From: Candidatus Zambryskibacteria bacterium RIFOXYC1_FULL_39_10
GTDB lineage: Bacteria > Patescibacteriota > Minisyncoccia > Phycocordibacterales > WO2-35-19
Assembly (NCBI GenBank): GCA_001824275.1
Contig: MHWW01000013.1
Span: forward strand, 1 to 42,356
Direction: 5' to 3'
Length of the DNA: 42,356 bases
The notes below the pieces were generated by a model. That model saw only the letters and a program-made list of their open reading frames with translations, made no database searches and was not told the origin of the DNA. How positions within the stretch are numbered: the stretch's first letter is position 1; every line of letters starts with the position of its first letter. Made by a program: the position numbers and the translations under genes. Shown here piece after piece: positions 13,569 to 37,738 of the stretch.

Positions 13569-13596
13569 TTACATATTCTCTCAATTATGCTAAAAT
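13569..13596 (+). promoter_or_regulatory. Promoter of structured RNA A and module 1 cargo
   Basis: TTACAT at 13569-13574, 16-base spacer, extended -10 TGCTAAAAT with hexamer at 13591-13596. The predicted start is near 13603, directly before the folded region. Confidence 0.6.
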
Positions 13597-13602
13597 TTCA
13601 AT

Positions 13603-13765
13603 ACAACTGAATATAAAGCCTAGTAGCCTAAACCGGTGGTCGCCGGCATGGTGAAAAGTGAAGAAAGTCGCGAACAGCGTAAAAAACCCATCATCAGGGT
13701 TGCTGTTCGCGCCATATCGGGAAACTGGTATGTGGCCTCCGGGCCATCTGGTGGTGGGCTTTTTG
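13603..13765 (+). ncRNA. Structured RNA A (bistable leader of module 1 cargo)
   Basis: A 5' hairpin domain is followed by a perfect 10-bp stem, 13669-13678 with 13702-13711, whose 23-base apical part holds AACCC/GGGTT. Next is CATATCGG-GAAA-CTGGTATG (13713-13732, GNRA loop), then TGGCC-TCCG-GGCCA (13733-13746). The 3' segment 13748-13764 pairs with the apical part 13681-13697 over 16 of 17 positions, ending in five U. The same architecture with compensatory changes occurs at 27825-27967. It ends 14 bases before the first cargo ATG. It could be a cis-acting switch or a stand-alone RNA. I do not recognise it as a named class. Confidence 0.85.
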
Positions 13766-13778
13766 TATGTAAAAAACT

Positions 13779-14018
13779 ATGTGGAAATTATTTTGGAACA
13801 TCTTGGCGGTAGTAGTCGGTTTATATACCGGATATAGAATTTTTATTTGGTGTGGGGAACATATCCCAGCTTTTGGATATTTTCCTTTGGGTGTGATTGG
13901 CGGTTTGGCTGCATTGGGATTTGGTATTTATTTGATACATGGAGTAGAACTTTTAATTTCTTGGATTATAGGGAGATTATTTAAAATTCAAAAGGAAGAA
14001 GATTTACCTTTCAATTAA
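13779..14018 (+). CDS. Small membrane protein, first cargo gene of module 1
   Basis: 79 residues, two hydrophobic helices (about 4-24 and 35-68) containing IPAFGYFPLGVIGGLAALGFG. No Shine-Dalgarno sequence is seen; translation begins 14 bases after the U-tract of RNA A, so its expression is likely tied to that RNA. It is followed closely by the protease gene. Family unknown. Confidence 0.75.
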   Translation: MWKLFWNILAVVVGLYTGYRIFIWCGEHIPAFGYFPLGVIGGLAALGFGIYLIHGVELLISWIIGRLFKIQKEEDLPFN

Positions 14019-14029
14019 AACCCACTCAA

Positions 14030-15022
14030 ATGTTAAATTTTTTCAAAAACAAATTCATTAAAACATACAAACCTATTCTAGTTATTGTGATTATCTTAAT
14101 CATTTGTATTTTTGGTTTTATTGGTGTTAGAAAATACAGCGATTACAAAAATTTGCAGCAAAACACTACCCAAGAACTGATACAACAGCAACAGAAATCA
14201 TTAGAAGAAGCAATAAAAGAAATAAATGATTTAAAATCTGCAAACCAAGCAACATCCGAAAAATTGGACCAAAAAATCAACCAAATTGAAAGCAAAAGCC
14301 AAAAAACTGATTCTATAGGTTCTACCGATTTAGAACCTTATATAACCGGTGTTGTAGAAATAACCTGTAAGGATTCGTCAGGGAGCGGCTCATTGTGGAA
14401 TATTGATTCTAAAAATGTAGTCATTACAAATGATCATGTAGTAGAAACTCCCTTTTATAGCTCGTATAACAAACAAAGCTATTGTGTTGTGTTTGCGGAA
14501 AAAATAAATGGGGATTTCGATATGATTTATACAGTATTTCCGTCTTCAAAATGGAATTGGAATAATGAAACGGATATTGCAGTTATGAATCTTGTTGAAA
14601 AGTTTTATCCGGATGGCAATCCTCTTCCTAGTGAATTGGAGAAACCAGCGAATCATTTGAATTTTAAAATTTCTACACTAAAAAAATGCCCATCACAAAT
14701 AGCAGTTGGGTCTCCTGTAGTAGTGATTGGATATCCTGCCTCTGGTATGCAAGAGACATTTAATGGTATGGGGATTGATGCAGCAAGAATTGTTACGAAT
14801 GGGGTGGTTAGTGGATATGACAAGACTGTAAATCCTCCGTATGGAGGACTATTAAACCCAAATTATTATGTATCAGCAAAGATTGATAGTGGAAGTTCTG
14901 GGGGTATAGCATTATCTAGAAACGACGACAAATTGTGTGTCTTAGGTATCCCTACATGGATAAACGTCGGTAATTATGACACCCAGGGCGTGATTCAAAA
15001 TATTCATAATGTTATGAAATAA
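14030..15022 (+). CDS. Membrane-anchored trypsin-like (HtrA-type) serine protease
   Basis: 330 residues. One N-terminal transmembrane helix (about 16-34), a coiled coil (about 40-92) and then a chymotrypsin-fold protease domain. The catalytic triad is visible: His136 in TNDHVV, Asp182 in TDIAVM and Ser290 in GSSGG. There is no PDZ domain, so it is a minimal protease facing outside the cytoplasm. It probably trims surface or secreted proteins. It sits in a plus-strand operon-like run with two other envelope proteins and the SppA-like peptidase. Confidence 0.85.
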   Translation: MLNFFKNKFIKTYKPILVIVIILIICIFGFIGVRKYSDYKNLQQNTTQELIQQQQKSLEEAIKEINDLKSANQATSEKLDQKINQIESKSQKTDSIGSTDLEPYITGVVEITCKDSSGSGSLWNIDSKNVVITNDHVVETPFYSSYNKQSYCVVFAEKINGDFDMIYTVFPSSKWNWNNETDIAVMNLVEKFYPDGNPLPSELEKPANHLNFKISTLKKCPSQIAVGSPVVVIGYPASGMQETFNGMGIDAARIVTNGVVSGYDKTVNPPYGGLLNPNYYVSAKIDSGSSGGIALSRNDDKLCVLGIPTWINVGNYDTQGVIQNIHNVMK

Positions 15023-15037
15023 AAATTTATTTTTAAG

Positions 15038-15322
15038 ATGACAAATTCATTTAAAAAAGTTGTTGCTTACATTGGCTCTGTAATAGTTTGTTTATGGCTT
15101 GCTTTAAACATTTTCATTGGCTTTGCATATCCGTCCCTAGTTGCTTTTGACGGAATAAAATTATTTTTCACAAATCCTCAAGAATTGATCAGACAAATGG
15201 TTGATCTTTTCGGAATACTTGGTCTTACTGTCATAGTTTTGATATTTCCCGGTGTTTTGATCTGGAGTTACGAAAAGTTTTCTGTTTTTTTGTTAAGAAA
15301 AAGATTATCTAAATGTAAATAA
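15038..15322 (+). CDS. Two-TM membrane protein
   Basis: 94 residues with hydrophobic helices at about 8-28 and 58-80 and a basic C-terminal tail. Between the protease and the zinc-ribbon gene, spacing 15 and 1 bases. Unknown family. Confidence 0.7.
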   Translation: MTNSFKKVVAYIGSVIVCLWLALNIFIGFAYPSLVAFDGIKLFFTNPQELIRQMVDLFGILGLTVIVLIFPGVLIWSYEKFSVFLLRKRLSKCK

Positions 15323-15323
15323 T

Positions 15324-15494
15324 ATGCCTCATCAATTTCAATCAATAAATTGTAAAAAGTGCGGTCACGGATACTGCCCGGTATGCAAGGACAAGTGTCC
15401 GAAATGCGGAGAAGTGGATGTGGCTGACGAAAAAACGATGGAGATTAGAGAGCAGATGAAAACATTATTAAAATCAAATGGAAGAAAAAAATAA
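15324..15494 (+). CDS. Small zinc-ribbon protein
   Basis: 56 residues with three CxxC pairs: C10-C13, C18-C21 and C25-C28 (CKKCGHGYCPVCKDKCPKCG), enough for one or two zinc knuckles, then a charged helix. Its end overlaps the start of the sppA-like gene by 17 bases, suggesting translational coupling. Function unknown. Confidence 0.7.
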   Translation: MPHQFQSINCKKCGHGYCPVCKDKCPKCGEVDVADEKTMEIREQMKTLLKSNGRKK

Positions 15495-16290
15495 AATATC
15501 AAAAAAAATTATTCTGTATTTTATCGGGATCGGCCTTGTCTCTTTTTTACTGGGGACCCTAGTCATGATTATACCCGAAGAAACGGGTCCGGAAGATAAC
15601 TTCTGTAATGTTATGGTCCTCTCATTAAACGGAGTACTCGCAACCTATCTACCCCCTAAATCTGAAGACGATTCGGAGATGTTCTACTCCTCCGAAAATG
15701 TTTTGGCTGCCATAGAAAAAGCGGAAAATGATCCCGATGTCAAAGGTCTCATTCTTTCAATCAATAGCCCGGGCGGCGATATTGTGGCCGGGGAAGAAAT
15801 AGCCAATGCCCTCAAGGCCATGAAGAAGCCAAATGTCGCTGTAATACGCAATATGGGAGCTTCTGCAGCCTTCCTTGCTTCCTCCGGAGCCGACAGAGTA
15901 TATGCTTCCAAACTGTCTGACACTGTTGGAATCGGGGTCACAATGTCTTACACCGATCAGACAGAGAAAAACAGGAAAGAGGGCTTAACTTTTAACCAAC
16001 TCTCAACCGGTAAATTCAAAGATGCCGGAGATCCGGATAAACCACTTACCGAAGAAGAAAAATTAATCTTCATGATTGATCTAGAAAAAGCTCACAAAAT
16101 TTTCGTTGAAGAAATAGCTCAAAACAGAAATCTCAAAATTGAAGATGTGTCTAAAATATCTACCGGCAGAACATATCTCGGGGAAGAGGCTCTCAATTTT
16201 GGCCTTATTGATGAGATTGGAAGTATAGATACTGCCGTTAAATACATTGAAAGTTTAACTGGAGAAAAAGCCGAAACTTGTTGGTATTAA
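15478..16290 (+). CDS. sppA: SppA-like signal peptide peptidase (S49)
   Basis: 270 residues. An N-terminal transmembrane helix (about 11-31) is followed by a Clp/crotonase-fold S49 domain. SINSPGGDIVAGEEIANAL is the oxyanion-hole strand. NMGASAAFLASSGADRVYAS carries the nucleophile Ser129, and TGKFKDAGDPDKPLT carries the general-base Lys179. STGRTYLGEEALNFGLIDEIG is the family C-terminal signature. SppA degrades signal peptides and membrane-protein fragments. Being in a mobile island next to another protease is unusual for this gene. Confidence 0.9.
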   Translation: MEEKNKISKKIILYFIGIGLVSFLLGTLVMIIPEETGPEDNFCNVMVLSLNGVLATYLPPKSEDDSEMFYSSENVLAAIEKAENDPDVKGLILSINSPGGDIVAGEEIANALKAMKKPNVAVIRNMGASAAFLASSGADRVYASKLSDTVGIGVTMSYTDQTEKNRKEGLTFNQLSTGKFKDAGDPDKPLTEEEKLIFMIDLEKAHKIFVEEIAQNRNLKIEDVSKISTGRTYLGEEALNFGLIDEIGSIDTAVKYIESLTGEKAETCWY

Positions 16291-16338
16291 AAACTAATTT
16301 AAAAAATATGGGATTAGCGATAAGTAAAAATAAATTAT
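16291..16338 (+). repeat. Repeat of an upstream-plus-start block (copy 1)
   Basis: The segment AACTAATTTAAAAAA, then ATGGGATTAGCGATAAG, recurs with three or four changes at 17112-17146. There it begins an intact 52-residue gene. Here the frame stops after 19 codons inside the next gene, so this copy looks like a decayed relic or a duplicated regulatory block. Confidence 0.6.
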
Positions 16339-17106
16339 ATGAAAAAATGTCCATTTTGCAAAAATGAAATTAATGTGGACGTAGCGCAATGCCCAATCTG
16401 TAAAATGATACTTATTGAAAAAATACCTCATATTAATCCTACTTCAGAACGAGTCTACACTTCATCATCACCAAAAGAACCAAAAAAGCAAACGCATACT
16501 TCTTATTACACTCCCCCTCAAAAATCTTCTTCTAAAGAGCGGTTTAAAATTCCAAATGGTAGTGGTTGGATAATTTCAATCGTTGGATCAATTGCACTCA
16601 CTTTAATTTTGAATGGTAATTATGGTTCTTCGAATCCGCTCCCCGCGCCATTATCTGATCCGACTATCGTAGATACTAATCTATCTTTAACACCAATTCC
16701 TCATACTTCATATTATTCACTTCCAAATGGCACAGTTCTCTTTTCCTCATCACTTAATGGAGAGGGCATTTTAAGCATTTCGAATGGGACCAAATCCGAC
16801 GCAGTCGTAAAACTCATTACAACAGGCGGTAGCAAAGTTTATTCTGTTTATGTGCGTGCCAATAGCAGCTATTCGATTGAAAATATAAACGACGGTATCT
16901 ATAGATTGCTTTTTTCTTTTGGTTCAAATTGGGACCCGAATCAAAATAAGTTTTTGGTTAATCCAAGGGCGGAAGCTTTTGATGATACTTTCGATTTTGA
17001 GACTTCAGATACCAAATCTACAGGTTTTACTATTACTTTAAATCCGGTAATTGACGGAAAAGCCACAACGAGCCCACTCGATTCAAATGTATTTGATAAA
17101 TACTAA
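16339..17106 (+). CDS. Zinc-ribbon membrane-anchored protein
   Basis: 255 residues. The N-terminal zinc ribbon has CPFC and CPIC pairs (residues 4-7 and 18-21). A Ser/Pro/Lys-rich linker follows, then a transmembrane helix (about 79-95) and an extracytoplasmic beta-rich domain of about 140 residues with no family I recognise. The layout, a cytoplasmic ribbon plus an exported domain, resembles other zinc-ribbon membrane proteins. The role is not predictable. Confidence 0.75.
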   Translation: MKKCPFCKNEINVDVAQCPICKMILIEKIPHINPTSERVYTSSSPKEPKKQTHTSYYTPPQKSSSKERFKIPNGSGWIISIVGSIALTLILNGNYGSSNPLPAPLSDPTIVDTNLSLTPIPHTSYYSLPNGTVLFSSSLNGEGILSISNGTKSDAVVKLITTGGSKVYSVYVRANSSYSIENINDGIYRLLFSFGSNWDPNQNKFLVNPRAEAFDDTFDFETSDTKSTGFTITLNPVIDGKATTSPLDSNVFDKY

Positions 17107-17129
17107 ACTTTAAAAATTAATTTAAAAAC

Positions 17130-17288
17130 ATGGGATCAGCGATAAGAGTAGCTATACAACTTTTAGAAGAATTTTGGAAAATGCCTTTCGAAGGAAAACT
17201 CCTGTTCATTATTCCAACAGTAATTGTAGTCAGTTTGATTATTTGGAAAGAGGAAAGAAATAAAAATAAAATATGGAATAAAAAATAA
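17130..17288 (+). CDS. Small single-TM protein
   Basis: 52 residues, MGSAIRVAIQLLEEFWKMPF, then a hydrophobic helix (LLFIIPTVIVVSLIIW) and a basic tail. Its first 35 bases duplicate the block at 16289-16324. Confidence 0.55.
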   Translation: MGSAIRVAIQLLEEFWKMPFEGKLLFIIPTVIVVSLIIWKEERNKNKIWNKK

Positions 17289-17322
17289 AATTTTTCATAA
17301 ATTCATGTTTTTGTTATTTGTT

Positions 17323-17395
17323 GCCCTCGTAGCTCAATGGACAGAGCAAGACGCTTCTATCGTCAAGGTTGGAGGTTCGACCCCTTCCGAGGGCA
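17323..17395 (+). tRNA. tRNA-Arg(TCT)
   Basis: Acceptor GCCCTCG/CGAGGGC, D arm GCTC/GAGC, anticodon loop CTTCTAT with anticodon TCT, T arm GGAGG/CCTTC (one G-T), discriminator A; no CCA encoded. The first anticodon-stem pair is an A-A mismatch. It reads AGA codons, the main arginine codon of the AT-rich island genes. It is uninterrupted and lies in the middle of cargo. Confidence 0.93.
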
Positions 17396-17485
17396 CAAGA
17401 TTAAGTGAATATGGAACCTTTGTATTGAGAGGTGTATTATGGGACCATATCGCCGATCAACTTTTGATTTTTAATATCAAAAAAT

Positions 17486-18310
17486 ATGTTTGTTTCAAAG
17501 AAAATAATTTATATATCAGCTGGGGCCATTGTTTTATTGTTCATATCTTCCATCATCTCATTTTTGGGGAGCGGAAATTCAAATTTGCCACTGGAGCAGA
17601 TAACAACTACAGAAGAAGTGGTGGAAATAAATCCACTGCCTCAGTCCGGTGATTTGTATAAAGTGGTCAAAGTAGTAGATGGCGACACGGTCACGATAAA
17701 CATGAACGGCAAATCACAAACCATTCGTTTGATCGGTTTAAACACTCCGGAGACTGTGGATCCGAGAAAACCGGTAGAGTGTTTTGGTAAAGAAGCCTCG
17801 GATAAAGCTAAAGAAATTTTAACAGGGAAAGAAGTGAGAATTGAGAAAGATCCGGGTCAAGGGGATTATGATAAATACAATCGACTTTTGGCTTACGTAT
17901 TTTTGGAAGATGGGACTAATTTCAATAAATACATGATCGAGCAGGGTTTGGGCTATGAGTATACATATAATCTTCCTTACAAATATCAAAAAGAGTTTAA
18001 AACGGCCCAAGAACAGGCTAAATCACAGAAAAGAGGACTATGGGCAGATAATGCCTGCAAAATCGAACAGTCAACCAAAACAACCACTACAACCTCTGCT
18101 CCTGCACCAATACAGCAATTCCAAACCACCACCGAAAGCAAGCCTGCCACAAATGGTAATTACATTTGTTCATACAACGCCTATAACTGCTCCAATTTCT
18201 CAACTCAAAACGAAGCACAGGCCGCTTTTGAGGCCTGTGGAGGAGTGAATAACGATATTCATGGACTGGATCGAGACAAGGATGGGGTGGTTTGCGAAAG
18301 TCTACCATAG
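17486..18310 (+). CDS. Secreted or membrane-anchored thermonuclease with Excalibur domain
   Basis: 274 residues. An N-terminal hydrophobic anchor (about 7-27) is followed by a staphylococcal-nuclease domain: VDGDTVTI, Arg81 in TIRLIGLNTPE with Glu89, and Arg133 in YNRLLAYVF. A Thr/Pro-rich linker then leads to a C-terminal Excalibur calcium-binding domain ending DRDKDGVVCE, with paired cysteines. It would hydrolyse extracellular DNA or RNA in a calcium-dependent way. For a host-attached CPR cell this could supply nucleotides or act on competing DNA; that use is inference. Confidence 0.9.
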   Translation: MFVSKKIIYISAGAIVLLFISSIISFLGSGNSNLPLEQITTTEEVVEINPLPQSGDLYKVVKVVDGDTVTINMNGKSQTIRLIGLNTPETVDPRKPVECFGKEASDKAKEILTGKEVRIEKDPGQGDYDKYNRLLAYVFLEDGTNFNKYMIEQGLGYEYTYNLPYKYQKEFKTAQEQAKSQKRGLWADNACKIEQSTKTTTTTSAPAPIQQFQTTTESKPATNGNYICSYNAYNCSNFSTQNEAQAAFEACGGVNNDIHGLDRDKDGVVCESLP

Positions 18311-18336
18311 CCGAAAAATATAATTTTTTATAAAAA

Positions 18337-19629
18337 ATGACTCAAGGATATTTATTTAAAATTCCGCCCGATAGACGCTCAATTTTTAACGATCATATCG
18401 AAGGTGAATTCGCCCAACCTGTTCCAAGTTTTTCTCACAGTCGTGGGTCAGCTCTTATAGTATTTATCTCTTTAGAGGAAGGGCTGATTACTCATTTAGC
18501 CTCTGGGCGGGCCGGTAATCACGCGGGGACTGATTTGCGTCGGTTAAATTTGGAACAAATTCATATTTTAGAAAACCCATTAAATTTTAGTGATATTTTA
18601 GAACATTCTCCTTCAAATGTTCGACGATATATTAGTAACGCATTTGAACATGGAGGTATTTTACCGCCAGGGAGTTTTAACGGAATGGTAAATGCAATCT
18701 ATGAATTAAATCCCGATGCCGGTTCTTTACTTGCCCGATACAGTACACAACGTCAAGAAACAATAGCGAATCTATCATCAAATGTCTCTAAATCACTTGC
18801 GGCTCAAAAAGAAGCACTGAACACTGCATTGAGTATTGCTGGTATTGATAGGAAGCCTTTACTTGAGTGGACACCTAACCATGTAGAACAATCATCCTCG
18901 TTTCTTACTGGCTTGCCCAATGCATATTTAAGAGAAGATCAGATGATATTAAATGATTTCAATTTCATTCCTGGTTTTGACCGAATTAGAGGCTCTGTAA
19001 CTGGTACTGTACAATTTGAAAACAGGGATACAAAATTAAATGTAATTTTAGCTAATAGACTTCCTCTGGAAGAACAAACCGGAGCGGATTTAATATATTA
19101 TAATGCTACTTATCAATCATTTGTCTTGGTGCAATATAAAGCTATGGAGGATGGGACGGATGATTATGGCCCATCGTTTCGGCTTCCTAATTGGCAATTA
19201 ACCGAAGAATTAACTCGCGCGGATGCTTTAATGGATCAAATTAGATCAGTGCCGCCGGTATCAAATCGGAATGGGTATCGTTTAGCTGAAATTCCATTCT
19301 TTTTGAAATTGTGTCCAAGAATTGTGTTAAAACCAGATGATGTTGGATTGACGCCGGGCATGTATTTTTCTCGAGATCACTGGAAGTTTCTTGAGACGGA
19401 CAGCGATTTAGTTGGAGCTCGTGGTGGGCGAAAAATAACTTATAACAATATAGGGAGACATATAAATAATACGGAATTTATTAGTCTTGTACAAAATGCT
19501 TGGATTGGAACTACTCCGGCCCAAAGTCAAATGTTAGAACCAATTATTTCAGAAATTCTTACGAATGGAAAATCTGTTATTATCGCCTGTAAATCAAATA
19601 AAGAAGCCTTGGATATTGAAGAATTTTAA
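18337..19629 (+). CDS. PD-(D/E)XK-nuclease-like protein of unknown role
   Basis: 430 residues, no membrane segment. The stretch GADLIYYNATYQSFVLVQYK (about 249-268) has the D...(Q)xK pattern of restriction-type PD-(D/E)XK cores, with Asp251 and Gln266/Lys268. The remainder has no recognisable domain. The N-terminal 140 residues (RSIFNDHIEGEFAQPV, HLASGRAGNHAGTDLRRL) could be a substrate-recognition region. It is the first of a run of five plus-strand genes ending at 22908. The nuclease assignment rests on a single motif and is tentative. Confidence 0.55.
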   Translation: MTQGYLFKIPPDRRSIFNDHIEGEFAQPVPSFSHSRGSALIVFISLEEGLITHLASGRAGNHAGTDLRRLNLEQIHILENPLNFSDILEHSPSNVRRYISNAFEHGGILPPGSFNGMVNAIYELNPDAGSLLARYSTQRQETIANLSSNVSKSLAAQKEALNTALSIAGIDRKPLLEWTPNHVEQSSSFLTGLPNAYLREDQMILNDFNFIPGFDRIRGSVTGTVQFENRDTKLNVILANRLPLEEQTGADLIYYNATYQSFVLVQYKAMEDGTDDYGPSFRLPNWQLTEELTRADALMDQIRSVPPVSNRNGYRLAEIPFFLKLCPRIVLKPDDVGLTPGMYFSRDHWKFLETDSDLVGARGGRKITYNNIGRHINNTEFISLVQNAWIGTTPAQSQMLEPIISEILTNGKSVIIACKSNKEALDIEEF

Positions 19630-19657
19630 TTTGGGTATACTATTGCAATTTACTACC

Positions 19658-20134
19658 ATGGAAGAGGGGAAATTTGAACAGAAAAAGAGGGCGGATGTGG
19701 TTATAGGTATAGCCATAGCTGCTATTGCTGGCTTTATTTTAAACTTGTTAGCAAATTTGTATTATGATCTTTTTATAATCGAAACTACTGTCTGGGCCAA
19801 GGTTAACCACTTTCAAGTTATTTGTGTTTCGTTAGCTCTTTTGGGGCTAATTGGATTTTTGGAATTTTTTATTTTTGATTATAAAAATAACTTTGAAGTA
19901 AACAAGAGTTTTTTAAAAAGATATTTAAATTATTTCTTTTATAATTTTACTCCTGGCAAAATTATTAGAGTCATTACTGGTTTATACGTGTCAGCTATTC
20001 TTGTTGGGTTCACAATTATAATTTACATTTTTATGGCCAAATCTGCCGGATATTATATTGCAACCGGAGTTTTTCTGGCCGCCTTTTTAAAAATTTATCT
20101 GGAAGAAAGAGAGAAGAAAAAGCTACTCAACTAA
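19658..20134 (+). CDS. Four-TM membrane protein
   Basis: 158 residues from the ATG at 19658, with four hydrophobic helices. An earlier in-frame ATG at 19565 would overlap the preceding gene by 65 bases. A TATACT box at 19636-19641 favours 19658. Function unknown; it sits between the nuclease-like and the papain/GNAT genes. Confidence 0.65.
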   Translation: MEEGKFEQKKRADVVIGIAIAAIAGFILNLLANLYYDLFIIETTVWAKVNHFQVICVSLALLGLIGFLEFFIFDYKNNFEVNKSFLKRYLNYFFYNFTPGKIIRVITGLYVSAILVGFTIIIYIFMAKSAGYYIATGVFLAAFLKIYLEEREKKKLLN

Positions 20135-20150
20135 TAAAGATTTAGATAAT

Positions 20151-21101
20151 ATGTATGCATATGGTCTAAAATGCGACCATTTGCGACAGTCTATTGATCA
20201 AAAAGGGCTCCACGGATTTTATCAACACCGCCGCCAGAGAATAGCTTGCTCTCCGAGAGACTTTTTTTATTTAAACATCAAAATACGGAACCGTCTGATT
20301 TTTGTTAAAATATATAGTATGGCTATAAACGATTGCGTAACCGCCTCTATGTTCATGTGTCAGCCGGAATGGATCAAGCATAATTTATCCCGGAGATTTC
20401 ATTTTTGCTTGTGTAAAATGCTTGATGGCGGTTTAAGCAGCGGAACCACTATGATTACTGGTTTACGAGCGGTCCATGGTTGGGGGATGGTCCCTGAAGC
20501 TTCATTTTTTCCATCCAACAGAAAGTTAAGCGAAGAGGAATATTCCAACTGGAGAAAAATACCACCTATCATGTGGGAATATTCCAAAAAGATAGATATT
20601 TTAGGTAACGAGCAGCTACTGAAAACACCAAATGTGCTCTACAGAAAAGAATATTTAAATAATAACAAGAAGTTTGAAGTGTACATGACTTGTTTTTCTG
20701 CACTCGGATTTTTGCATACGAATTTAAATGTCTGTACTTCTAAATTTGAAACTGCCGGTTGGCTCAATGTCATGATAAATCACAATGACCATACGGCGTA
20801 TCCGGATGATCTGTTTGTTAAACCGGAATTCAGAAGGATTGGAATTGGCAATTTCCTGCTCAAGGAATTGGAATTTTTGATCTTAAGCGGTACTCTAGAG
20901 GGGTATGTAATGGAACTGCAGACGGGGAAAAAGGCTGAGATTAAAAACGTAAACTTCAGGATTCCTTCAGTCGATATTTATACGAAAAATCGCAAGGAAG
21001 CGGCGCTTAAGCTATTTAGAAAAAACGGCTACAAACTCGTTATTGATGACTCTAAGAAAATTGTTGACTCAAAATTATTAGCAATTAAGGAAATAAAATG
21101 A
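20151..21101 (+). CDS. Papain-like (C1) region fused to a GNAT acetyltransferase domain
   Basis: 316 residues. Residues about 57-130 resemble the first half of papain-family proteases: INDCVTAS with a candidate nucleophile Cys62, LSRRFHFCLCKMLDGG, then SSGTTMITGLRAV and VPEASFFPSN, matching the order Cys, substrate loop, GxxPE strand. No clear papain His/Asn half follows. Instead residues about 215-300 form a GNAT fold with VKPEFRRIGIGNFLL, the acetyl-CoA pyrophosphate loop. The start could also be 20319 (MAINDC), preceded by an AT-rich TATAGT. Its stop overlaps the next ATG by 4 bases. The GNAT part is firm; the papain part is moderate. Confidence 0.6.
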   Translation: MYAYGLKCDHLRQSIDQKGLHGFYQHRRQRIACSPRDFFYLNIKIRNRLIFVKIYSMAINDCVTASMFMCQPEWIKHNLSRRFHFCLCKMLDGGLSSGTTMITGLRAVHGWGMVPEASFFPSNRKLSEEEYSNWRKIPPIMWEYSKKIDILGNEQLLKTPNVLYRKEYLNNNKKFEVYMTCFSALGFLHTNLNVCTSKFETAGWLNVMINHNDHTAYPDDLFVKPEFRRIGIGNFLLKELEFLILSGTLEGYVMELQTGKKAEIKNVNFRIPSVDIYTKNRKEAALKLFRKNGYKLVIDDSKKIVDSKLLAIKEIK

Positions 21102-21613
21102 AAGAAGAAAACAATGTTATTTTTGAATGTCCGGACCAGAATCTGACAGCGATTTTAAAAGAATTATTTCCAGATGTTTCCATTAATCCAGACCCTCCGA
21201 AAGAACAATCTGGCAGCAACGATGTAGATGACTACAATCCGGAACCTCTTACGGGTGGGGCCGGTTTTGATCCGAATTTTTCTTCCTTCATTCTTACCGT
21301 GATTTATACTGCCGGTTACGATGGCATAAAATTTACTCTAAAGAAAATATTCGATGCAATAAAAAACATTGACCCCAAGAAAACGGATTTTCTCCTGGTT
21401 AAATATCCGAATATTAACGACTGCAAGATCTCCTTCATATTGCCAGCACAAATGTCTTCCGAAAAACTAGATGATCTGAAAGAAAGCATGGATTCTCTTT
21501 ATAATAATTTGGGCAATTTCATCTCTTCAAATAATGGCTGTATTCTAAATTCAAAATTTGAATACTCGTACAATGATGAGGAGGATAAGTGGGAGTTTAA
21601 ATCAATGATCTAA
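21098..21613 (+). CDS. Unknown acidic protein
   Basis: 171 residues, soluble. A disordered acidic and Pro-rich segment (about 24-50) is followed by an alpha/beta-like second half. Starts in an ATGA overlap with the GNAT gene and ends one base into the next, so the three form a translationally coupled set. No family recognised. Confidence 0.65.
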   Translation: MKEENNVIFECPDQNLTAILKELFPDVSINPDPPKEQSGSNDVDDYNPEPLTGGAGFDPNFSSFILTVIYTAGYDGIKFTLKKIFDAIKNIDPKKTDFLLVKYPNINDCKISFILPAQMSSEKLDDLKESMDSLYNNLGNFISSNNGCILNSKFEYSYNDEEDKWEFKSMI

Positions 21614-22908
21614 TGAACACTCCTCTTGATGCTGCTTATAATCGTTTAGATGAGGCCCATAGGGCTTGGCACAGCGCTTTATCAGGATATCATCGAATAG
21701 ATGATTTTCGAGCCGGTATAAACGGGGCCATACAGGCACTTAGAAATTTAACTTTTGTTTTGCAAAAGCAAAAAGATAACCTTGCTAACTTTGATGTCTG
21801 GTATTCTGGGTGGAGACAAAAAATGCAAGATAATCAGCTCCTTAAAGAGCTTGTTGAAGCTCGAAATATAATTGTTAAACAAGACGATCTAAAATTACAT
21901 AGCGTCGCTAAAGCCAGAACGAGAGGGTGGGTTGACTTCGAGAGGGTTGCTTTTACTTTCGATCCGTTTGCTGACAGCTTAGAAGTCGCTACGGGTTTTT
22001 ATAATACGTATGCAAAATATTTGCCCGTACCGGAAGAACTTAAAAAGAGACTGATCTTTGAATTTGAAAGGAAGTGGGTGTACGAAAAATTGCCAGATTA
22101 TGAGTTGCTTGATGCGATCGCTCAATCCTATCATTTTTTTCACGAAATGCTCCTAGACGCATCCGATAAATTTTCAATTCATTCAAAACGAAATCTCTCT
22201 TCTGGTAATTATTGTCTCGGAGAATTAAACGATAAAAATAAACTGAAATGCATGATGGTCACAGATCAAAATCGCCGTCTTGTTTTTGGATTTAGCGATG
22301 GAAATATGCTTGGAATGAAAACCGGAAAGATTGAACGGGATGAAGTTGACTTGGAAAAGGCAAAGGAAAGATACGGTGATGGATGGAAATCTGGAGAAAT
22401 TGTTTCTTTGTTAGAAGGTATTTTCCCGGAAAAGCATCCTTTTAATCAGATGAGGTTGTTTGCTCAGTCAGGATTGAATTGCCTCAAGAAAGACAAGTTT
22501 CTTGTTCCGGTGTCTTTCATATTCGTTGAAAATGAGAAAACACCACCTATTGTTATAAATCACTTCTTTCAAAACCAAGAACAAAAAATGGTGGCTATGG
22601 ATAGCGTGGCGGCAAAAATTATCGAAAATAATGGGAAATTTGTTCTCTTGATGGTTGAATCATGGATATATCCTTTTAACAAAGAGAAACCATTGGTCCC
22701 GCCCGAGTTTAGTTCAAAAAACGCAAAGGAGGTGGTTCAAATTTTTTGCTTATCTGAAAAAACGGTAAAAGTAATTAATGTTCCTTTTCATAAAAATATG
22801 TTTGGACAAGTAACTCTATCTAAGCCGTCCGTAGAAAATTTTTCAACCGAAGATCATAATTATTTTGTTATTTCGCCATTGACGAAAGCTCTTAAAGAAA
22901 ATAAATAA
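21613..22908 (+). CDS. Unknown protein with an HEPN-like helical N-terminal region
   Basis: 431 residues. The first 110 residues are helical with RAGINGAIQALRNLTFVLQ and then LVEARNIIVKQDDL, resembling the helical Arg-Asn region of HEPN-type proteins. No clear RxxxxxH catalytic pair is seen. The C-terminal two thirds is a mixed alpha/beta domain I cannot assign. It is the last gene of the 18337-22908 run. Confidence 0.6.
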   Translation: MNTPLDAAYNRLDEAHRAWHSALSGYHRIDDFRAGINGAIQALRNLTFVLQKQKDNLANFDVWYSGWRQKMQDNQLLKELVEARNIIVKQDDLKLHSVAKARTRGWVDFERVAFTFDPFADSLEVATGFYNTYAKYLPVPEELKKRLIFEFERKWVYEKLPDYELLDAIAQSYHFFHEMLLDASDKFSIHSKRNLSSGNYCLGELNDKNKLKCMMVTDQNRRLVFGFSDGNMLGMKTGKIERDEVDLEKAKERYGDGWKSGEIVSLLEGIFPEKHPFNQMRLFAQSGLNCLKKDKFLVPVSFIFVENEKTPPIVINHFFQNQEQKMVAMDSVAAKIIENNGKFVLLMVESWIYPFNKEKPLVPPEFSSKNAKEVVQIFCLSEKTVKVINVPFHKNMFGQVTLSKPSVENFSTEDHNYFVISPLTKALKENK

Positions 22909-22944
22909 ACACAAAAATGTTTACTTTTGTTTACCTTTTTTGGA

Positions 22945-23337
22945 TTATCCTCTGTTATTAAGAAATTTCAAAACTCTATATCCGGATTGTTTTGCACATC
23001 TTGGGCTGTACCCAGATTGTATAGCCGCCTTTGTTGCATTGAACCTGTTTGTAAGAAGGTGCTTTATAAAAGTTAATCGCCTCACTGTGGGTCCATTAAG
23101 ATAACAGCCCCGCAGGTTATTTTCGACTAAGTTACCTGCTATGATGCCCGGCAAATTTTTGTATAAATAGGGTTTATAAAAAATATAATCCATAATGAAT
23201 TTAAACTCATCCATATTAAATTTTGGGCTTGGTTTTGTTTTTTCATACTTTTCCGTTTTGTAGATCTCAGTAAGCACATCTATCACATCTTTTATGGTTA
23301 ACAGTAGCTCCTCTTTTTTCTTTTCCTTTTTGGCCAT
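22945..23337 (-). CDS. Terminase-small-subunit-like DNA-binding protein
   Basis: 130 residues. The C-terminal part, RFNATKAAIQSGYSPRCAKQSG, matches the helix-turn-helix of phage terminase small subunits, which binds DNA to start packaging. No large terminase or portal is present. It is 6 bases downstream of recombinase 2 and likely in its operon, where it may serve as a recombination directionality or att-binding factor rather than in packaging; that is inference. Confidence 0.7.
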   Translation of the reverse strand: MAKKEKKKEELLLTIKDVIDVLTEIYKTEKYEKTKPSPKFNMDEFKFIMDYIFYKPYLYKNLPGIIAGNLVENNLRGCYLNGPTVRRLTFIKHLLTNRFNATKAAIQSGYSPRCAKQSGYRVLKFLNNRG

Positions 23338-23343
23338 ATTCCT

Positions 23344-25152
23344 TTAATTTTTAAGTGTCGGATCAGCAAGCAGTTCTTTTAATTCCGCCAAAGCAATTGA
23401 AGGAAAGGGGTATTCATTTACCCAATCTATCGTTCTAAAATCGTCAGCCAGTGCGATGAGGGCAGGAAATTTACCTTCAAATTCTCCACTTTCTCCTTTA
23501 TTTACAACATATTCTCTTGGTTCGAACCCCACAATTTCGGACCTTGCAACTTGGAGTCCATTTATGTAAGCAGAAATTGATTTAGTGTTGTTAATCCTAA
23601 CTTTTCCACGATTAAACAGAAGGTTCGAACCAAACTTAACTAAAGCATCCCTCTTTTTTTCAAACGGTCCATTTTCAAGTAGCTCCGACATTTCGATAGA
23701 TAAATTTACAATTTTTTTCGCTTCACTAACCCAATCTATATTTTCAATCTCGGCCAGCTTTTTATTTCCTTGAATCGGGCTAATTTGCCTCTTGGCGAGA
23801 CTAAACTCCTCGTCGTTGATCAAACCTCTGTCATGCATATCCAAGAGCCTTAGGAGCTTCTTTTGGCCGTTTTCGGAGGATTGCTCGTTTGAACGAGTTA
23901 CCGCCTTATTTTCTTGAAGCTCTTTGTCTTTGATTTCGTCAATATGTCTTAATGCCCAGTCTGCTAACCCTTTGGAAATCTGGAAGTTTTGGACCAAGTA
24001 GTCAATCACTTCGCCATTAAGCTTCTTCTCTTCGATACTCACAGCCTTAATTCCGGGGCTTTTTCTTTCTTTGACGCTGGCGTAGAAAACATAGTTTTTA
24101 AATTTCGGCCTGTTCATATTTTGGATCTTGATACCACACTTTGGGCACTGGTCCTGGTTGATGTAAGAAAACTTATGCTTGCACGCCGTGCATCTTATTT
24201 GAAATTTTGGGTCTCCGACTACAGCACAATTGTTAACCTCATCCCAAATAAGACCACCATACAGCAGGTTTCTTTTTTGTGATCGCGGCCTGCCTTTTTT
24301 ACCAAGCATGTCTTGAATTTGCCAATACTGATCCTCGGTTATCATTCTTTTCAGTTTTTTATCCAAATCTTGCCTTACTACCTCACCATCTTCTTTGGCA
24401 TAATAAAAGAAGCCGGCATATACGGGATTTCTCAAAAGAAAATACAGATATGAAAGAGAGATTAATTTACCACCCTCTCTTTTCCTTGGGGGCGTAGTCA
24501 ATTTTAGTTCGTCCCGCGCTATAAAATAAAGTTTTCTCACAGAATACGTCCCCTCAAGAAATTTTTCAAAAATCATTTTAACGAGAGGCCACCTAACAGG
24601 ATCCTCATACCAGTCTCTGTTGCCTTTCTCCCTGGTCATATCATTAAAATACCCTATATGAGCCAAACCGTTCGGTAGCCCTTTAAGGTATCTTGTTCTT
24701 AAGCCAGTCTTTACGTGCTCGCTCTTATCGTCCGAGTCCTTCTTTGAAAAAATAAGCTCTAAAGCGAGAAATGCTTTATCTGTTGCTGTATTGTAGTAAA
24801 CTTTAGAAGGAGTTCTAACCTCTACCAATTTTTTAAGATCCATAAAATAGATAATCATCCCAGCATCAACAGGATTTCTGGATAGGCGATTGGGGAAAAG
24901 GACGAGCAATCCGTTTGCCTCTCCGGCACTAATTCTCTGGATCATTTCGTTAAATTTCGGTCGGCCCGGAGTATGGGCACTCTGCGACTCGTAAATAATG
25001 TCAACAATTTCCAGTCCGTTTTTCTCGGCAAACTCCCCGAGTTCTCGGATTTGAGTTTCGATGGACTGGACCTGTCTATCCTCGGCTTCGCTCGATTTAC
25101 GGCAATATATGAAATACCTTAATTTTCTAATGACCGGCATTAAATTTTTCAT
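23344..25152 (-). CDS. Large serine recombinase 2
   Basis: 602 residues. The catalytic N-terminal domain has YCRKSS (Ser20), then LVLFPNRLSRNPVDAG with the conserved Arg residues. The recombinase domain (about 165-290) is followed by a zinc ribbon (CTACKHKF...CPKCGIK near 335-360) and a helical C-terminal region. The order of domains matches large serine integrases or transposases. It diverges from recombinase 1, so the island has two separate site-specific recombination systems or is built from two elements. The 5' side carries a striking nested inverted repeat at 25184-25273. Confidence 0.92.
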   Translation of the reverse strand: MKNLMPVIRKLRYFIYCRKSSEAEDRQVQSIETQIRELGEFAEKNGLEIVDIIYESQSAHTPGRPKFNEMIQRISAGEANGLLVLFPNRLSRNPVDAGMIIYFMDLKKLVEVRTPSKVYYNTATDKAFLALELIFSKKDSDDKSEHVKTGLRTRYLKGLPNGLAHIGYFNDMTREKGNRDWYEDPVRWPLVKMIFEKFLEGTYSVRKLYFIARDELKLTTPPRKREGGKLISLSYLYFLLRNPVYAGFFYYAKEDGEVVRQDLDKKLKRMITEDQYWQIQDMLGKKGRPRSQKRNLLYGGLIWDEVNNCAVVGDPKFQIRCTACKHKFSYINQDQCPKCGIKIQNMNRPKFKNYVFYASVKERKSPGIKAVSIEEKKLNGEVIDYLVQNFQISKGLADWALRHIDEIKDKELQENKAVTRSNEQSSENGQKKLLRLLDMHDRGLINDEEFSLAKRQISPIQGNKKLAEIENIDWVSEAKKIVNLSIEMSELLENGPFEKKRDALVKFGSNLLFNRGKVRINNTKSISAYINGLQVARSEIVGFEPREYVVNKGESGEFEGKFPALIALADDFRTIDWVNEYPFPSIALAELKELLADPTLKN

Positions 25153-25183
25153 GACTTTGTAAGTTAATCTTATAAACGGAAAA

Positions 25184-25273
25184 GGGGTAACAATAGGAAC
25201 TTTAATCGCCAGACTAAAGCATTGTTACCCCGCCTCTATATACAAAATTATTGCGTTTTAACTTTAGTCTGGC
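25184..25273. repeat. Nested inverted repeats with pseudoknot topology upstream of recombinase 2
   Basis: GGGGTAACAAT (25184-25194) pairs perfectly with ATTGTTACCCC (25221-25231). The 26-base loop contains GCCAGACTAAAG (25208-25219), which pairs perfectly with CTTTAGTCTGGC (25262-25273). In the recombinase's transcript the interleaved arms form a pseudoknot or alternative hairpins. The site could also be a recombinase-binding att or res site. Confidence 0.8.
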
Positions 25274-25275
25274 TT

Positions 25276-25872
25276 TCATATTATATTACGATTTTCCTTA
25301 ACATTCCACCTAATTTCTTTCTCCCATTTGACCCTGTCCAGATCTTCTGACAGATTATTGTATCTCAACAACTTCTTTGTTTCGCGGCCCTTCCACTTTA
25401 AGCTTCTTGGCATGTGCTTTTCAATCTTTTTCATCCTCTTTTCTATAATTATTTTTCTGATGTCTGGATGCCATCTCAATTTCTTGGTTAATAACTGAGA
25501 TATGTATTTTAGACTATGGCAGTGCCTGCACAGGAAACGCCCCTCGAAGAAATAGATGGACACTACACGGCGGAAACAGCCCGGACATATAAACCAGTAT
25601 CTGAAACCGCCAAAGTTGCAGGAAATTCTCTGCAGGTTTATTTTACAATCATAATCTATGTAAGAACTATTATAAGATCTTCTATCGTGTATATATTCAA
25701 GCTTTATATATGGGTATCTATAGTCAAGATGTATCTCGTAATAAATATCCCCGTCTACAATAAGCAAGTTGTCCCAACATAGAGTGCCCGTCTTGTATCC
25801 ATTTCTAAAATTCTCCAACATCATTCGGGTATGGATATTTTTTGATAATTCAATTATTCGTGTGGTTTTCAT
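25276..25872 (-). CDS. Mobile-element zinc-ribbon protein
   Basis: 198 residues. A beta-rich N-terminal half (DGDIYYEIHLDYRYPYI) leads into GGFRYWFICPGCFRRVVSIYFFEGRFLCRHCHSLKY, a CxxC...CxxC ribbon with an aromatic RYWFICP lead-in. This type recurs next to integrases on many bacterial mobile elements without a known function. A basic helical tail follows. It is the gene immediately upstream of recombinase 2. Confidence 0.7.
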   Translation of the reverse strand: MKTTRIIELSKNIHTRMMLENFRNGYKTGTLCWDNLLIVDGDIYYEIHLDYRYPYIKLEYIHDRRSYNSSYIDYDCKINLQRISCNFGGFRYWFICPGCFRRVVSIYFFEGRFLCRHCHSLKYISQLLTKKLRWHPDIRKIIIEKRMKKIEKHMPRSLKWKGRETKKLLRYNNLSEDLDRVKWEKEIRWNVKENRNII

Positions 25873-25916
25873 ATCGTCTCGTCAACCGAACTCATTAAGA
25901 GTTGGGTTAACAAAAT

Positions 25917-26099
25917 TTATTGCTCTTCTAAGCTTTCTTTAGGTTTAAAATAGTCTGTAAATATCTCATCAGTAAGTTTCGACATAGTCTTACCTTTATC
26001 TGTAGATTTCCATTTCAACAACTTATGGTTGTCTGTGCTTATTCTTATTAAACGCGTTTCTCTTTTATATTTCTCTTTTTGTTCTTTTATTGTTGGCAT
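25917..26099 (-). CDS. Probable ribbon-helix-helix-type regulator
   Basis: 60 residues with a short beta strand (RLIRISTDNHKLLKW) and two helices, the size and pattern of ribbon-helix-helix DNA-binding proteins. It is one base from the next upstream gene's end. Likely an autorepressor of the control block. Confidence 0.6.
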   Translation of the reverse strand: MPTIKEQKEKYKRETRLIRISTDNHKLLKWKSTDKGKTMSKLTDEIFTDYFKPKESLEEQ

Positions 26100-26100
26100 T

Positions 26101-26343
26101 TTATTTTCTTGAATAATTTTTATTAATTATACTAAGCGGATGTTCTTCGCATCTACGCGGTGCTTCTAATGCTCTCTTTATCATTTTAAACCACACATTA
26201 AACATGGCTTCCATATCTAAGTGCTTATTTTTAAGTATTTCCAATTCGATTTTGTTTAACTCTCTACCATATTTACACGTTGTTAGTTGTCGTATTAATT
26301 CCTCGTAGATTTTAAATGCATACACAGTTTTATTTTCAAACAT
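26101..26343 (-). CDS. Unknown small helical protein
   Basis: 80 residues, mostly helical (YELIRQLTTCKYGRELNKIE). Its stop is one base from the ATG of the ribbon-helix-helix gene, and the two look co-transcribed. It could be a toxin-antitoxin pair, but nothing in it marks a toxin. Confidence 0.55.
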   Translation of the reverse strand: MFENKTVYAFKIYEELIRQLTTCKYGRELNKIELEILKNKHLDMEAMFNVWFKMIKRALEAPRRCEEHPLSIINKNYSRK

Positions 26344-26656
26344 AATTTATTTTGTTAATTTATAATTTTGTTTACTTAACCCCCGGCCCGGATTTTTCGA
26401 CCCCCTCCCTCCTCCGCTTCCCTCTGATGATAAAGTCTTTCCTTGTTCCTTGCAGACAGCCCTAGTTTAGTTTGATTAGTTTCTTTCCCGTCATATTTGG
26501 GAGCAGACGGAACTAATTAAATTACCAGAGCGCGCCCTCTCTCATCATCGTCGGTCGCGTTGTCGGTTGGCCTGCAACCCTTCGGATTTCTCCGACCACG
26601 TGCAGATGTGGCCCGGGCCAAATGACCCTAAATTATCCACTTAACAAATGGACAAT
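26344..26656. other. GC-rich gene-free stretch
   Basis: About 310 bases with no supported gene, visibly more GC-rich than its neighbours and holding several short palindromes. It could hold an origin of transfer or replication, an attachment site or a structured RNA; nothing decides among these. Confidence 0.45.
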
Positions 26657-26661
26657 TTAGG
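26627..26661. repeat. 13-bp inverted repeat (CCTAAATT...AATTTAGG)
   Basis: CCTAAATT-A-TCCA pairs with TGGA-C-AATTTAGG around CTTAACAAA, one mismatch. It overlaps the end of the 57-residue gene and may be its terminator or an operator. Confidence 0.7.
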
Positions 26662-26830
26662 AACTTTTGGCTAAGCTGACTTTATATTTGATAATTACTG
26701 CCATGATCCCGAGCAACCTGGCCCCAAAGTCATTCAAATCATCTTCGCTAAAAAGCGCGAGACCCCTTTCTCCGATGTCTTTCCGGAGAATTTCTCTAAG
26801 CTCTTCTTTTGCTTTTTGGCTGAGTTCCAT
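26657..26830 (-). CDS. Small helical protein common on CPR elements
   Basis: 57 residues beginning MELSQKAKEELREILRKDIG, with LNDFGARLLGIMAVII in the second half, ending KSS. Two predicted helices; short proteins of this style are frequent near recombinases, but the role is unknown. Three overlapping ATG codons occur at the start, and this one gives the open frame. Confidence 0.55.
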   Translation of the reverse strand: MELSQKAKEELREILRKDIGERGLALFSEDDLNDFGARLLGIMAVIIKYKVSLAKSS

Positions 26831-26891
26831 TCATTCATTTTAAATTGCCCCTTGCAGTAAAACCCGACTTACTTTTTACAGATGAAAAGAA

Positions 26892-26919
26892 AAAAACCGC
26901 TTTTTATAAAGCAGTTTTT
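26892..26919 (-). terminator. Intrinsic terminator of the 282-residue gene
   Basis: AAAAAC and GCTTT arms pair with AAAGC and GTTTTT, one mismatch, loop of 4. A/T tracts on both sides mean it could work in both directions; it lies 25 bases beyond the stop at 26944. Confidence 0.7.
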
Positions 26920-26943
26920 ATTCATATTGTGTTATCCACAAAC

Positions 26944-27792
26944 TTACTGGAACTTACTCAAATTCTTTTCATAAGTGCCATTACCGATACGTTTAATTTT
27001 AATTAGAAATTTATACTCTCCATTTTCCAGTTTAATAACGTCTTTTAACAAAAATCCCGCTCTTGCATACATAGGATTGTCCTTGTTTAAATTCCAATAC
27101 TTATGTGCTTGATTTCCATAATCATCTACAGCAAGTCTGTGTGGAGACTTAGAAATATCATAGAGCAATCTGCCACTTTTATTTATTTTACCGCTTAGGC
27201 CCTTAAAGGGGGCCGTTAGAGGGGGCTTTATGGAGTAGTCATCATTTACCAGATAAATAAATTTATCACCTCGATCTTTAGTGTATTCAACTACTGTTAT
27301 GAATTTTATTTCTTTAGTTACTAGTTTAAATTTGGAAGGATGTTTCCCAACTTTTTTTCTGACTTCTTGCAGAATATCAAGTTTTTTATAAGTCTCTTCC
27401 CTTATATTTTTGACCCATTGTTGGCCTTCTTCCTCTGACACTAGCAAATCTTCTTCAAGGTTTGTTACTGGAACTGAATCGGTTCTAGAGAATTTTTCAA
27501 ACTCGTCTAGCAGATATTTTTTATGTATCTCTAATAATCTTCTTGCTGTGCTTTTCCATTTCAAATACATTCTCCTGAAATCTTGGTGGAAATATGGCTT
27601 ATTGGACTTATATCGATCTAATATACTTTCTTCCGTGTATGCAGTAATTTCTTGACCGGTGGAAATAAGCTCATAAAGTTTATTTTGGGTATCTTTGATA
27701 GAATAATCCTCTAAAAAATGGCTCAAATCAAGTTTAAAATGAACTGGACCTTTATTAGTCACCATTTTATATAGTTTATCTTTTCCTCCCAT
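26944..27792 (-). CDS. Unknown protein in the module 2 control position
   Basis: 282 residues, soluble, basic, with a helical middle (RRMYLKWKSTARRLLEIHKKYL) and a C-terminal beta-rich part. It is divergent from structured RNA B, in the same position as the 236-residue gene has to RNA A, so it may control module 2. No family recognised. Confidence 0.65.
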   Translation of the reverse strand: MGGKDKLYKMVTNKGPVHFKLDLSHFLEDYSIKDTQNKLYELISTGQEITAYTEESILDRYKSNKPYFHQDFRRMYLKWKSTARRLLEIHKKYLLDEFEKFSRTDSVPVTNLEEDLLVSEEEGQQWVKNIREETYKKLDILQEVRKKVGKHPSKFKLVTKEIKFITVVEYTKDRGDKFIYLVNDDYSIKPPLTAPFKGLSGKINKSGRLLYDISKSPHRLAVDDYGNQAHKYWNLNKDNPMYARAGFLLKDVIKLENGEYKFLIKIKRIGNGTYEKNLSKFQ

Positions 27793-27824
27793 AATGTTAA
27801 TATGTAAACATAATTGAATAGAGT

Positions 27825-27967
27825 TTGAAAGGACCTAACCTCATTGCTTCGGCAGTGAGCACGGTCCAAAGTCGAGTAAAGCGTAAAAAGGCCCAACGGG
27901 CTCGCTTTACTCGCCATATCGGGAAACCGGTATGAGAGGCTTCGGTCTCTACCCGTTTGGGCTTTTT
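27825..27967 (+). ncRNA. Structured RNA B (bistable leader of module 2 cargo)
   Basis: GGACC/GGTCC (27831-27835 with 27863-27867) encloses CTCATTGC-TTCG-GCAGTGAG. A perfect 10-bp stem, 27873-27882 with 27904-27913, carries an apical GCCC/GGGC. CATATCGG-GAAA-CCGGTATG (27915-27934) and AGAGGC-TTCG-GTCTCT (27935-27950) follow. The apical strand 27885-27900 pairs with 27952-27967 over 15 bp, two bulges, ending in five U. Compared with RNA A, three base pairs of the 10-bp stem change on both sides. It lies 32 bases before the cargo ATG at 28000. The promoter is less clear than for A. Confidence 0.85.
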
Positions 27968-35523: not shown

Positions 35524-35531
35524 ACCCTACT

Positions 35532-37472: not shown

Positions 37473-37481
37473 TTGTATTTT

Positions 37482-37733: not shown

Positions 37734-37738
37734 AGTAT

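Follow-up and report, generated by a model that had tools for sequence, protein, structure and literature searches.

LOOT RNAs as candidate bistable 5′ leaders of accessory operons in a Zambryskibacteria genome

A 42,356-nucleotide (nt) contig of Candidatus Zambryskibacteria bacterium RIFOXYC1_FULL_39_10 (MHWW01000013.1; its whole length is here called the window) carries two similarly built RNAs, RNA A and RNA B, each ahead of a group of putative cargo genes, and the question raised by this locus is what these RNAs are and whether they control the genes that follow them. A search of the window against Rfam 15 gave the LOOT RNA family, RF03000, for both: RNA B at 27832-27950 on the forward strand scored 81.4 bits (E 5.8e-14) and RNA A at 13625-13746, also on the forward strand, 58.4 bits (E 1.4e-08), the curated gathering cut-off being 46.4 bits, and both copies span the full model (positions 1-121). 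RNA A and RNA B are members of a catalogued family. A preliminary description of the locus had proposed an undescribed RNA class and had named a match to a known Rfam family as the result that would refute it; such a match was obtained for both copies, and a new class is ruled out. We conclude that the two RNAs are probably cis-acting, bistable LOOT 5′ leaders, each heading an operon of accessory (cargo) genes on a mobile element of Patescibacteria, a reading in which the family, the leader position, the promoter motif, two helices with their covariation, and a copy of one stem strand at the start site are supported by sequence.

The structures named in the preliminary description were all located in both copies. 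The elements, with their coordinates in the window, are the following.

13589-13596, forward: RNA A, −10-like element GCTAAAAT (TA.AAT consensus), just upstream of the start motif
13603-13613, forward: RNA A, putative transcript-start motif ACAACTGAATA, of the ACAAYTNAATA family
13625-13746, forward: RNA A as modelled by Rfam (RF03000): P1, P2 with its loop, P3 and P4
13627-13632 and 13647-13651, forward: RNA A, P1 internal loop CCTAAA / CATGG, a candidate 11-nt-type GAAA tetraloop receptor by family counts
13669-13679 with 13701-13711, forward: RNA A, P2, an 11-base-pair (bp) stem, CGCGAACAGCG/TGCTGTTCGCG
13680-13700, forward: RNA A, P2 loop, which contains both the local apical hairpin and the 5′ strand of the long-range helix
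13713-13732, forward: RNA A, P3 hairpin, with the invariant GAAA loop at 13721-13724
13733-13746, forward: RNA A, P4 hairpin, with a variable tetraloop, here TCCG
13747-13765, forward: RNA A, 3′ strand outside the Rfam model, partner of the P2 loop, with five U at 13760-13764
27798-27820, forward: RNA B, −10-like TAATAT and putative transcript-start motif ATAATTGAATA (27810-27820, one mismatch), read from the sequence
27832-27950, forward: RNA B as modelled by Rfam (RF03000)
27873-27883 with 27903-27913, forward: RNA B, P2, an 11-bp stem, CGAGTAAAGCG/CGCTTTACTCG, with its loop at 27884-27902
27915-27934, forward: RNA B, P3 hairpin, with the GAAA loop at 27923-27926
27935-27950, forward: RNA B, P4 hairpin, with a UUCG loop
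27951-27968, forward: RNA B, 3′ strand outside the Rfam model, partner of the P2 loop, with five U at 27963-27967

P1 to P4 of RF03000 are all present in the window copies, as are its conserved bases (CCUAA...AUGG, the A-rich linker and the GAAA hairpin), copy B reading CACGG instead of CAUGG. The Rfam model differs from the RNAs described here in that it has no 18-bp long-range helix, promoter motif, leader position or start-site copy. It stops at the final base of P4, directly before the 3′ strand, and is cut short at its 3′ end. Four of the eight pairs in its consensus apical stem above P2 are missing in both window copies; what the family as a whole appears to keep under selection is a shorter hairpin in the P2 loop. 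LOOT is one of many RNA families discovered computationally, and the papers on Rfam 14, Rfam 15 and CaCoFold name it just as a family or an example and give it no function. Part of the present findings may already stand in the original description (Weinberg 2017, NAR).

We asked whether the pairing between the P2 loop and the 3′ strand is conserved, using a first set of 107 LOOT RNAs (105 from 100 fetched loci and the two window copies), aligned with 30 extra bases by MAFFT without structure; a held-out set of 64 loci from other classes; and a second alignment of 121 LOOT sequences. Counts for the family refer to 169 loci or RNAs. Covariation was judged against a null in which substitutions were replayed along the tree, by an implementation of our own in the manner of R-scape and not by R-scape itself. 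Among the 107 RNAs, six column pairs between the P2 loop and the 3′ strand were significant, all in a single register, and pairs of P1, P2, P3 and P4 were likewise significant. In swap tests, which treat related sequences as independent, the RNA's own loop and 3′ strand paired at −25.0 kcal/mol compared with −13.8 for swapped partners (103 distinct RNAs), and none of 2000 permutations of the partners fell below −15.5; the held-out loci gave −24.0 and −14.2. In the 121-sequence alignment the helix comprises 18 pairs, interrupted by two conserved mismatches and a single bulge; pairing extends to 95.2% of its cells and drops to 44-49% when one strand is slid by 1-3 columns. Two-sided changes occur in 17 of the 18 pairs, with 345 two-sided cells against 111 in shuffles, and the outer pairs covary too (columns 87 with 194 in the 121-sequence alignment, 52 with 137 under the tree-based null). 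The covariation in homologues that the preliminary description had called for is present in the long-range helix.

The P2 loop also folds on itself. Own loops reached −5.17 kcal/mol compared with −3.08 when half-swapped, and more than 40 variants of the local stem occur that differ in both strands, such as CUGAAC/GUUCAG, CUAAAC/GUUUAG, CCAAAC/GUUUGG, CUGGAC/GUCCAG and AGAGAUGG/CCAUCUCU. No pair of the local hairpin was significant in the tree-based test of the 107 RNAs, where its columns align poorly. In 153 of 155 cases at least half of the 5′ strand of the local hairpin is also used by the long-range helix. Given that the long-range helix and the overlapping hairpin are each selected, two exclusive folds both appear to be maintained by selection, and the two competing helices of the preliminary description recur in the homologues as a conserved, covarying pair of alternatives. 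With these two competing folds, the LOOT RNAs are probably on/off switches. The long-range and P2 folds are close in energy in copy B (−77.0 and −75.9 kcal/mol, a difference of 1.1) and in one homologue (−77.2 and −75.5), and lie 4.4 kcal/mol apart in copy A (−60.8 and −65.2). It is the local hairpin that is strictly exclusive with the long-range helix; that P2 itself is incompatible with this helix would follow from geometry. In pseudoknots, a very short linker prevents two complete helices from forming together; here the linker joining P2 to the long-range helix has only 0-3 nt, and the full stem should therefore not coexist with a full helix of 14-18 bp.

These data bear on a static alternative, in which the 3′ strand always lies in the loop of a closed P2 and the RNA serves, with no switching, as a platform for a protein or for RNA polymerase, as an antitermination element would. 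The near universality of the long-range helix agrees with such a structure, and its inner 9 bp with an 8-nt linker would fit an intact P2. We nevertheless consider it improbable, since the local apical hairpin that it excludes is selected as well, and since the outer helix pairs covary although they leave almost no linker.

The core of the RNA points to a tertiary contact. The P3 loop is GAAA in all 169 LOOT RNAs, the P4 loop being variable, and the strands of P1 read CCUAA in 161/169 and YAUGG in 156/169. The canonical 11-nt GAAA receptor is CCUAAG with UAUGG (PMC11381326). Among the 121 aligned sequences the P1 combinations were CCUAAA/CAUGG in 68, CCUAAC/UAUGG in 33 and the canonical CCUAAG/UAUGG in one, and the receptor closing pair was A-C in 76, C-U in 34 and G-U in just two. 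Columns 7 and 26, which hold A-C or C-U, gave the one clearly non-standard covariation that was significant under the tree-based null, and this would be explained by the resemblance of P1 to the receptor. LOOT shares an invariant GAAA hairpin and CCUAA/AUGG strands with the tetraloop-receptor pairs of group I and group II introns and RNase P, and differs from them in that the closing G-U is mostly replaced by A-C or C-U and in that docking is predicted. We infer that P1 and P3 dock through the GAAA tetraloop and its receptor.

We examined where LOOT stands relative to genes, which were called by a simple open reading frame (ORF) rule. The next gene lies on the same strand in 100 of 107 loci, its start codon at a median of 53 nt past the Rfam end; in the held-out set a start codon was found within 110 nt in 62 of 64 loci (median 55 nt). 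The upstream gene showed no preferred orientation (opposite strand in 57 loci, same strand in 49). As judged from this arrangement, LOOT is a 5′ leader and not a free small RNA (sRNA), and its Rfam type, 'Gene; sRNA', is probably wrong. LOOT also appears to have its own promoter. The motif ACAAYTNAATA, allowing one mismatch, occurs in 76 of 170 LOOT loci compared with 1 of 170 in a control stretch; it lies about 17 nt before P1, with a TA.AAT element close upstream. This conserved 11-nt motif, at the probable transcript start of about half of the loci, is outside the Rfam model. No pairing partner was noticed for the corresponding 5′ end, ACAAYUNAAUA, for which no systematic search was made.

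A promoter of its own would also suit a free-standing LOOT sRNA that acts in trans, has the U run of the long-range helix as its 3′ end and is unrelated to the next gene, and such an RNA would accord with the Rfam type and with the five U that follow the helix in 76 of 169 homologues. We regard it as quite improbable: the separate transcription unit expected of a trans-acting sRNA is not what the loci show, and a free RNA would not produce a same-strand gene at so tight a distance beside a random upstream orientation.

The U run itself deserves a more restricted reading than it was first given. A G+C-rich helix followed at once by a U run, as in an intrinsic terminator or attenuator, is found in both window copies, and for these the terminator-like state of the preliminary description is plausible. 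It does not extend to the family, in which fewer than half of the homologues have the five U and the helix pairs at the U-run position are A-U, C-G, U-G, G-C or U-A, the U often being replaced along with its partner; a pure terminator was rejected as a general rule. The divergent control gene proposed upstream of each RNA fared similarly. Divergence holds for both window copies, but a control role is unsupported: the two upstream proteins show no relation to each other, neither has a Pfam match, and with upstream orientation random across loci the upstream gene was rejected as the regulator.

In a subset of loci a second link between the RNA and the next gene was found. The bases just before the start codon repeat the P2 5′ strand and the A run preceding it, as for the P2 sequences CCCGACCAAGA and aaaacccgaccaagacaATG. 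Of 105 loci, 29 had such a match over 8 nt or more, in nearly every case followed by an ATG no further than 5 nt away; match lengths were bimodal (8-12 nt, or a background of 3-7), and foreign P2 strands reached 7 nt in about 1%. The held-out set reproduced the copy in 12 of 64 loci (foreign control 0.3%), and in two of these it extends up to and into the start codon. When a start codon was required, 38 of 169 loci had the copy, ending −3 to +5 nt from the ATG; AAA precedes it in 36 of the 38, compared with 25 of the 131 loci lacking the copy. In both window copies the same search found no start-site copy, the best match being 4-5 nt. In one homologue with the copy, L130 (P2 CCCGCTACAGG), the P2 3′ strand would pair with the copy at −22.3 kcal/mol and with P2 at −21.4. 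In one group of LOOT RNAs that share a loop type, the replacement of P2 CCCGCTAGAG by CCTAGTAGAG was accompanied by a corresponding change in the start-site copy. Such a copy couples the RNA to the next start codon, which speaks against a free sRNA, and implies that the P2 3′ strand is free at times, which speaks against a static pseudoknot.

The 3′ strand has a further partner in a subset of loci. With the next 30 nt it paired at −11.75 kcal/mol, compared with −9.25 for swapped sequences and −9.92 for the best of 1000 permutations; the pairing is confined to these 30 nt, and none was found further downstream. Between LOOT and the gene, three loci (L071, L146 and L079; G046 C10, G122 C43 and G007 C4, respectively) contain another terminator hairpin, of ordinary appearance, which overlaps the partner sequence of the 3′ strand, as in a classical attenuator. 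Identical P2 sequences of 9-11 nt (e.g., CCTTGGAAGA, CGTATAAGGC, CCAGTTAGACA and CGCGAGAAGC) were also seen to recur across genomes with different loops.

The repeated sequence at the start site could alternatively be a duplication made on insertion, LOOT being a recombination or insertion site that folds as single-stranded DNA. The loci do lie among recombinases and phage-like genes, and P2 sequences recur in unrelated loci. We hold a DNA-level element to be highly improbable, given that a GAAA tetraloop and its 11-nt-type receptor form a tertiary motif of RNA, that G-U pairs are frequent in the long-range helix (U-G in 108 of 121 sequences at columns 99-182), that a promoter motif precedes LOOT, and that the start-site copy followed the change of P2 within a single loop type.

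LOOT is present in 20 of 60 relatives, in 104 of 384 genomes sampled in the class and in 83 of 380 in a phylum-wide sample, with six copies in this genome; it was absent from all 14 well-known control genomes. Matches of an exact P3 pattern in named genomes fell mostly in Patescibacteria (Taylorbacteria, Nomurabacteria, Zambryskibacteria, Staskawiczbacteria and others), some records being labelled just 'bacterium'. Against characterised phages and plasmids (blastn, E 1e-3), copy A had no phage match and copy B no plasmid match; in IMG/VR, two exact P3 patterns hit no more than single contigs. One LOOT-type P3 hairpin (L252, JAQUYY010000222.1) is on a 3.5-kb contig that was binned as Gastranaerophilales but probably belongs to Patescibacteria.

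The genes behind the two window copies are as follows.

13779-14018, forward: first gene behind RNA A, a 79-aa membrane protein from the ORF list, with no Pfam match
14030-15022, forward: second gene behind RNA A, a trypsin-like peptidase (PF13365, from Pfam) with an N-terminal hydrophobic segment read from the sequence
28000-28482, forward: first gene behind RNA B, a 160-aa membrane protein from the ORF list, with no Pfam match
28501-29340, forward: second gene behind RNA B, an exported protein (...FASWWNPLTW...) from the ORF list

Look-alikes of the exported protein directly follow other LOOT copies, as the first gene, both in this genome and in relatives. By a simple hydropathy test, 66% of first genes encode a membrane segment, compared with 2-31% of upstream neighbours; the values were 51% for the second same-strand gene and 0-32% for other later genes. 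Families among the first genes include DNA methyltransferases (nine of the type II/III kind and four of the D12 kind), five thermonuclease-like nucleases, superinfection exclusion or immunity proteins, and zinc-ribbon proteins. A cluster read from sequence as serine recombinases occurs within six genes of 51 of 107 loci; the window has two large serine recombinases (10630-12285 and 23344-25152, reverse strand) as well as terminase-like genes. Membrane and defence genes together with nearby recombinases fit the cargo of mobile elements or prophages, and the claim that a cargo operon follows each RNA is upheld by position and gene content across loci. Other features of the window are a tRNA-Arg(TCT) at 17323-17396, between the two LOOT operons, which could be an attachment site; a restriction-modification-like operon at 33460-40252 on the reverse strand, with a ResIII/HsdR-like helicase, an N6 DNA methylase and a HerA/DUF87 ATPase; and two group I introns above the Rfam threshold (10296-10596 and 40969-41203, forward strand; 74.8 and 69.4 bits) within 42 kb.

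The diversity of the first genes bears on the signal. Like riboswitch and attenuator leaders, LOOT is a short 5′ leader with exclusive, conserved helices as an expression platform, some copies having a U run and others a predicted covering of the start site; it differs from them in that its downstream genes share no common pathway and no ligand or aptamer pocket was identified. By this analogy LOOT would work like a riboswitch or attenuator leader, the name riboswitch requiring a ligand. A metabolite riboswitch, with the same two-state platform and a small ligand bound by P1-P3, would be the switch proposed here with its signal named, and would otherwise not differ from it. The position as a leader, outputs at both transcription and translation, and the likely tertiary contact between hairpins are all compatible with it; we think it unlikely, as the first genes, from methyltransferases and nucleases to exclusion and membrane proteins, do not form one pathway, and as the conserved bases are largely explained by tetraloop, receptor and helices.

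The two-state leader that we favour would operate as follows. Each RNA would start from its own promoter, P1 would dock on P3 through the GAAA tetraloop and the 11-nt-type receptor, and P2 with its local hairpin would form first during transcription. In state 1, P2 and the local loop hairpin are formed and the start site is free, the 3′ strand pairing in a subset of RNAs with the sequence that follows; a core holding P2 closed would leave the 3′ strand to this downstream partner, and the gene would be expressed. In state 2 the 3′ strand would invade the P2 loop and form the 18-bp helix, and P2 would open, as so short a linker leaves no room for a complete P2 beside this helix. We take state 2 to be OFF: in both window copies the U run after the helix could end transcription, and at the 38 loci with the copy the freed P2 3′ strand would cover the start site. 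Which state is ON, like the opening of P2 and the signal that shifts the balance, is part of the model.

Several points weigh against this proposal. The start-site copy is missing from 131 of 169 loci, including both in the window, and its association with absence of the U run is only suggestive (p = 0.066). Neither the copy nor the five U is present in 67 of 169 loci, and at least one further output is therefore likely. The fold energies are nearest-neighbour values, which leave out pseudoknots and tertiary contacts. Sterically, P2 could also stay intact while just the inner 9-10 bp of the long-range helix form, as a partial pseudoknot. Finally, with the conserved bases mostly accounted for by tetraloop, receptor and helices, no ligand pocket is evident.

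In its broadest form, the proposal makes LOOT a strand-exchange switch that acts in cis and is dedicated to mobile-element cargo in Patescibacteria, one core RNA with two outputs (the end of transcription, or a start-site copy that competes with its own stem), by which membrane, defence and superinfection-exclusion genes are held off or on in cells carrying the element; we consider the case for this to be evenly balanced. Testing the mechanism should be unusually easy thanks to the start-site copy, which predicts the bases that must change together in three places. For LOOT, the results supply a leader position, a promoter, the 3′ strand absent from the Rfam model, a two-state mechanism open to testing and the genes that it would control, and they do so in a phylum, Patescibacteria, whose gene regulation is hardly known.

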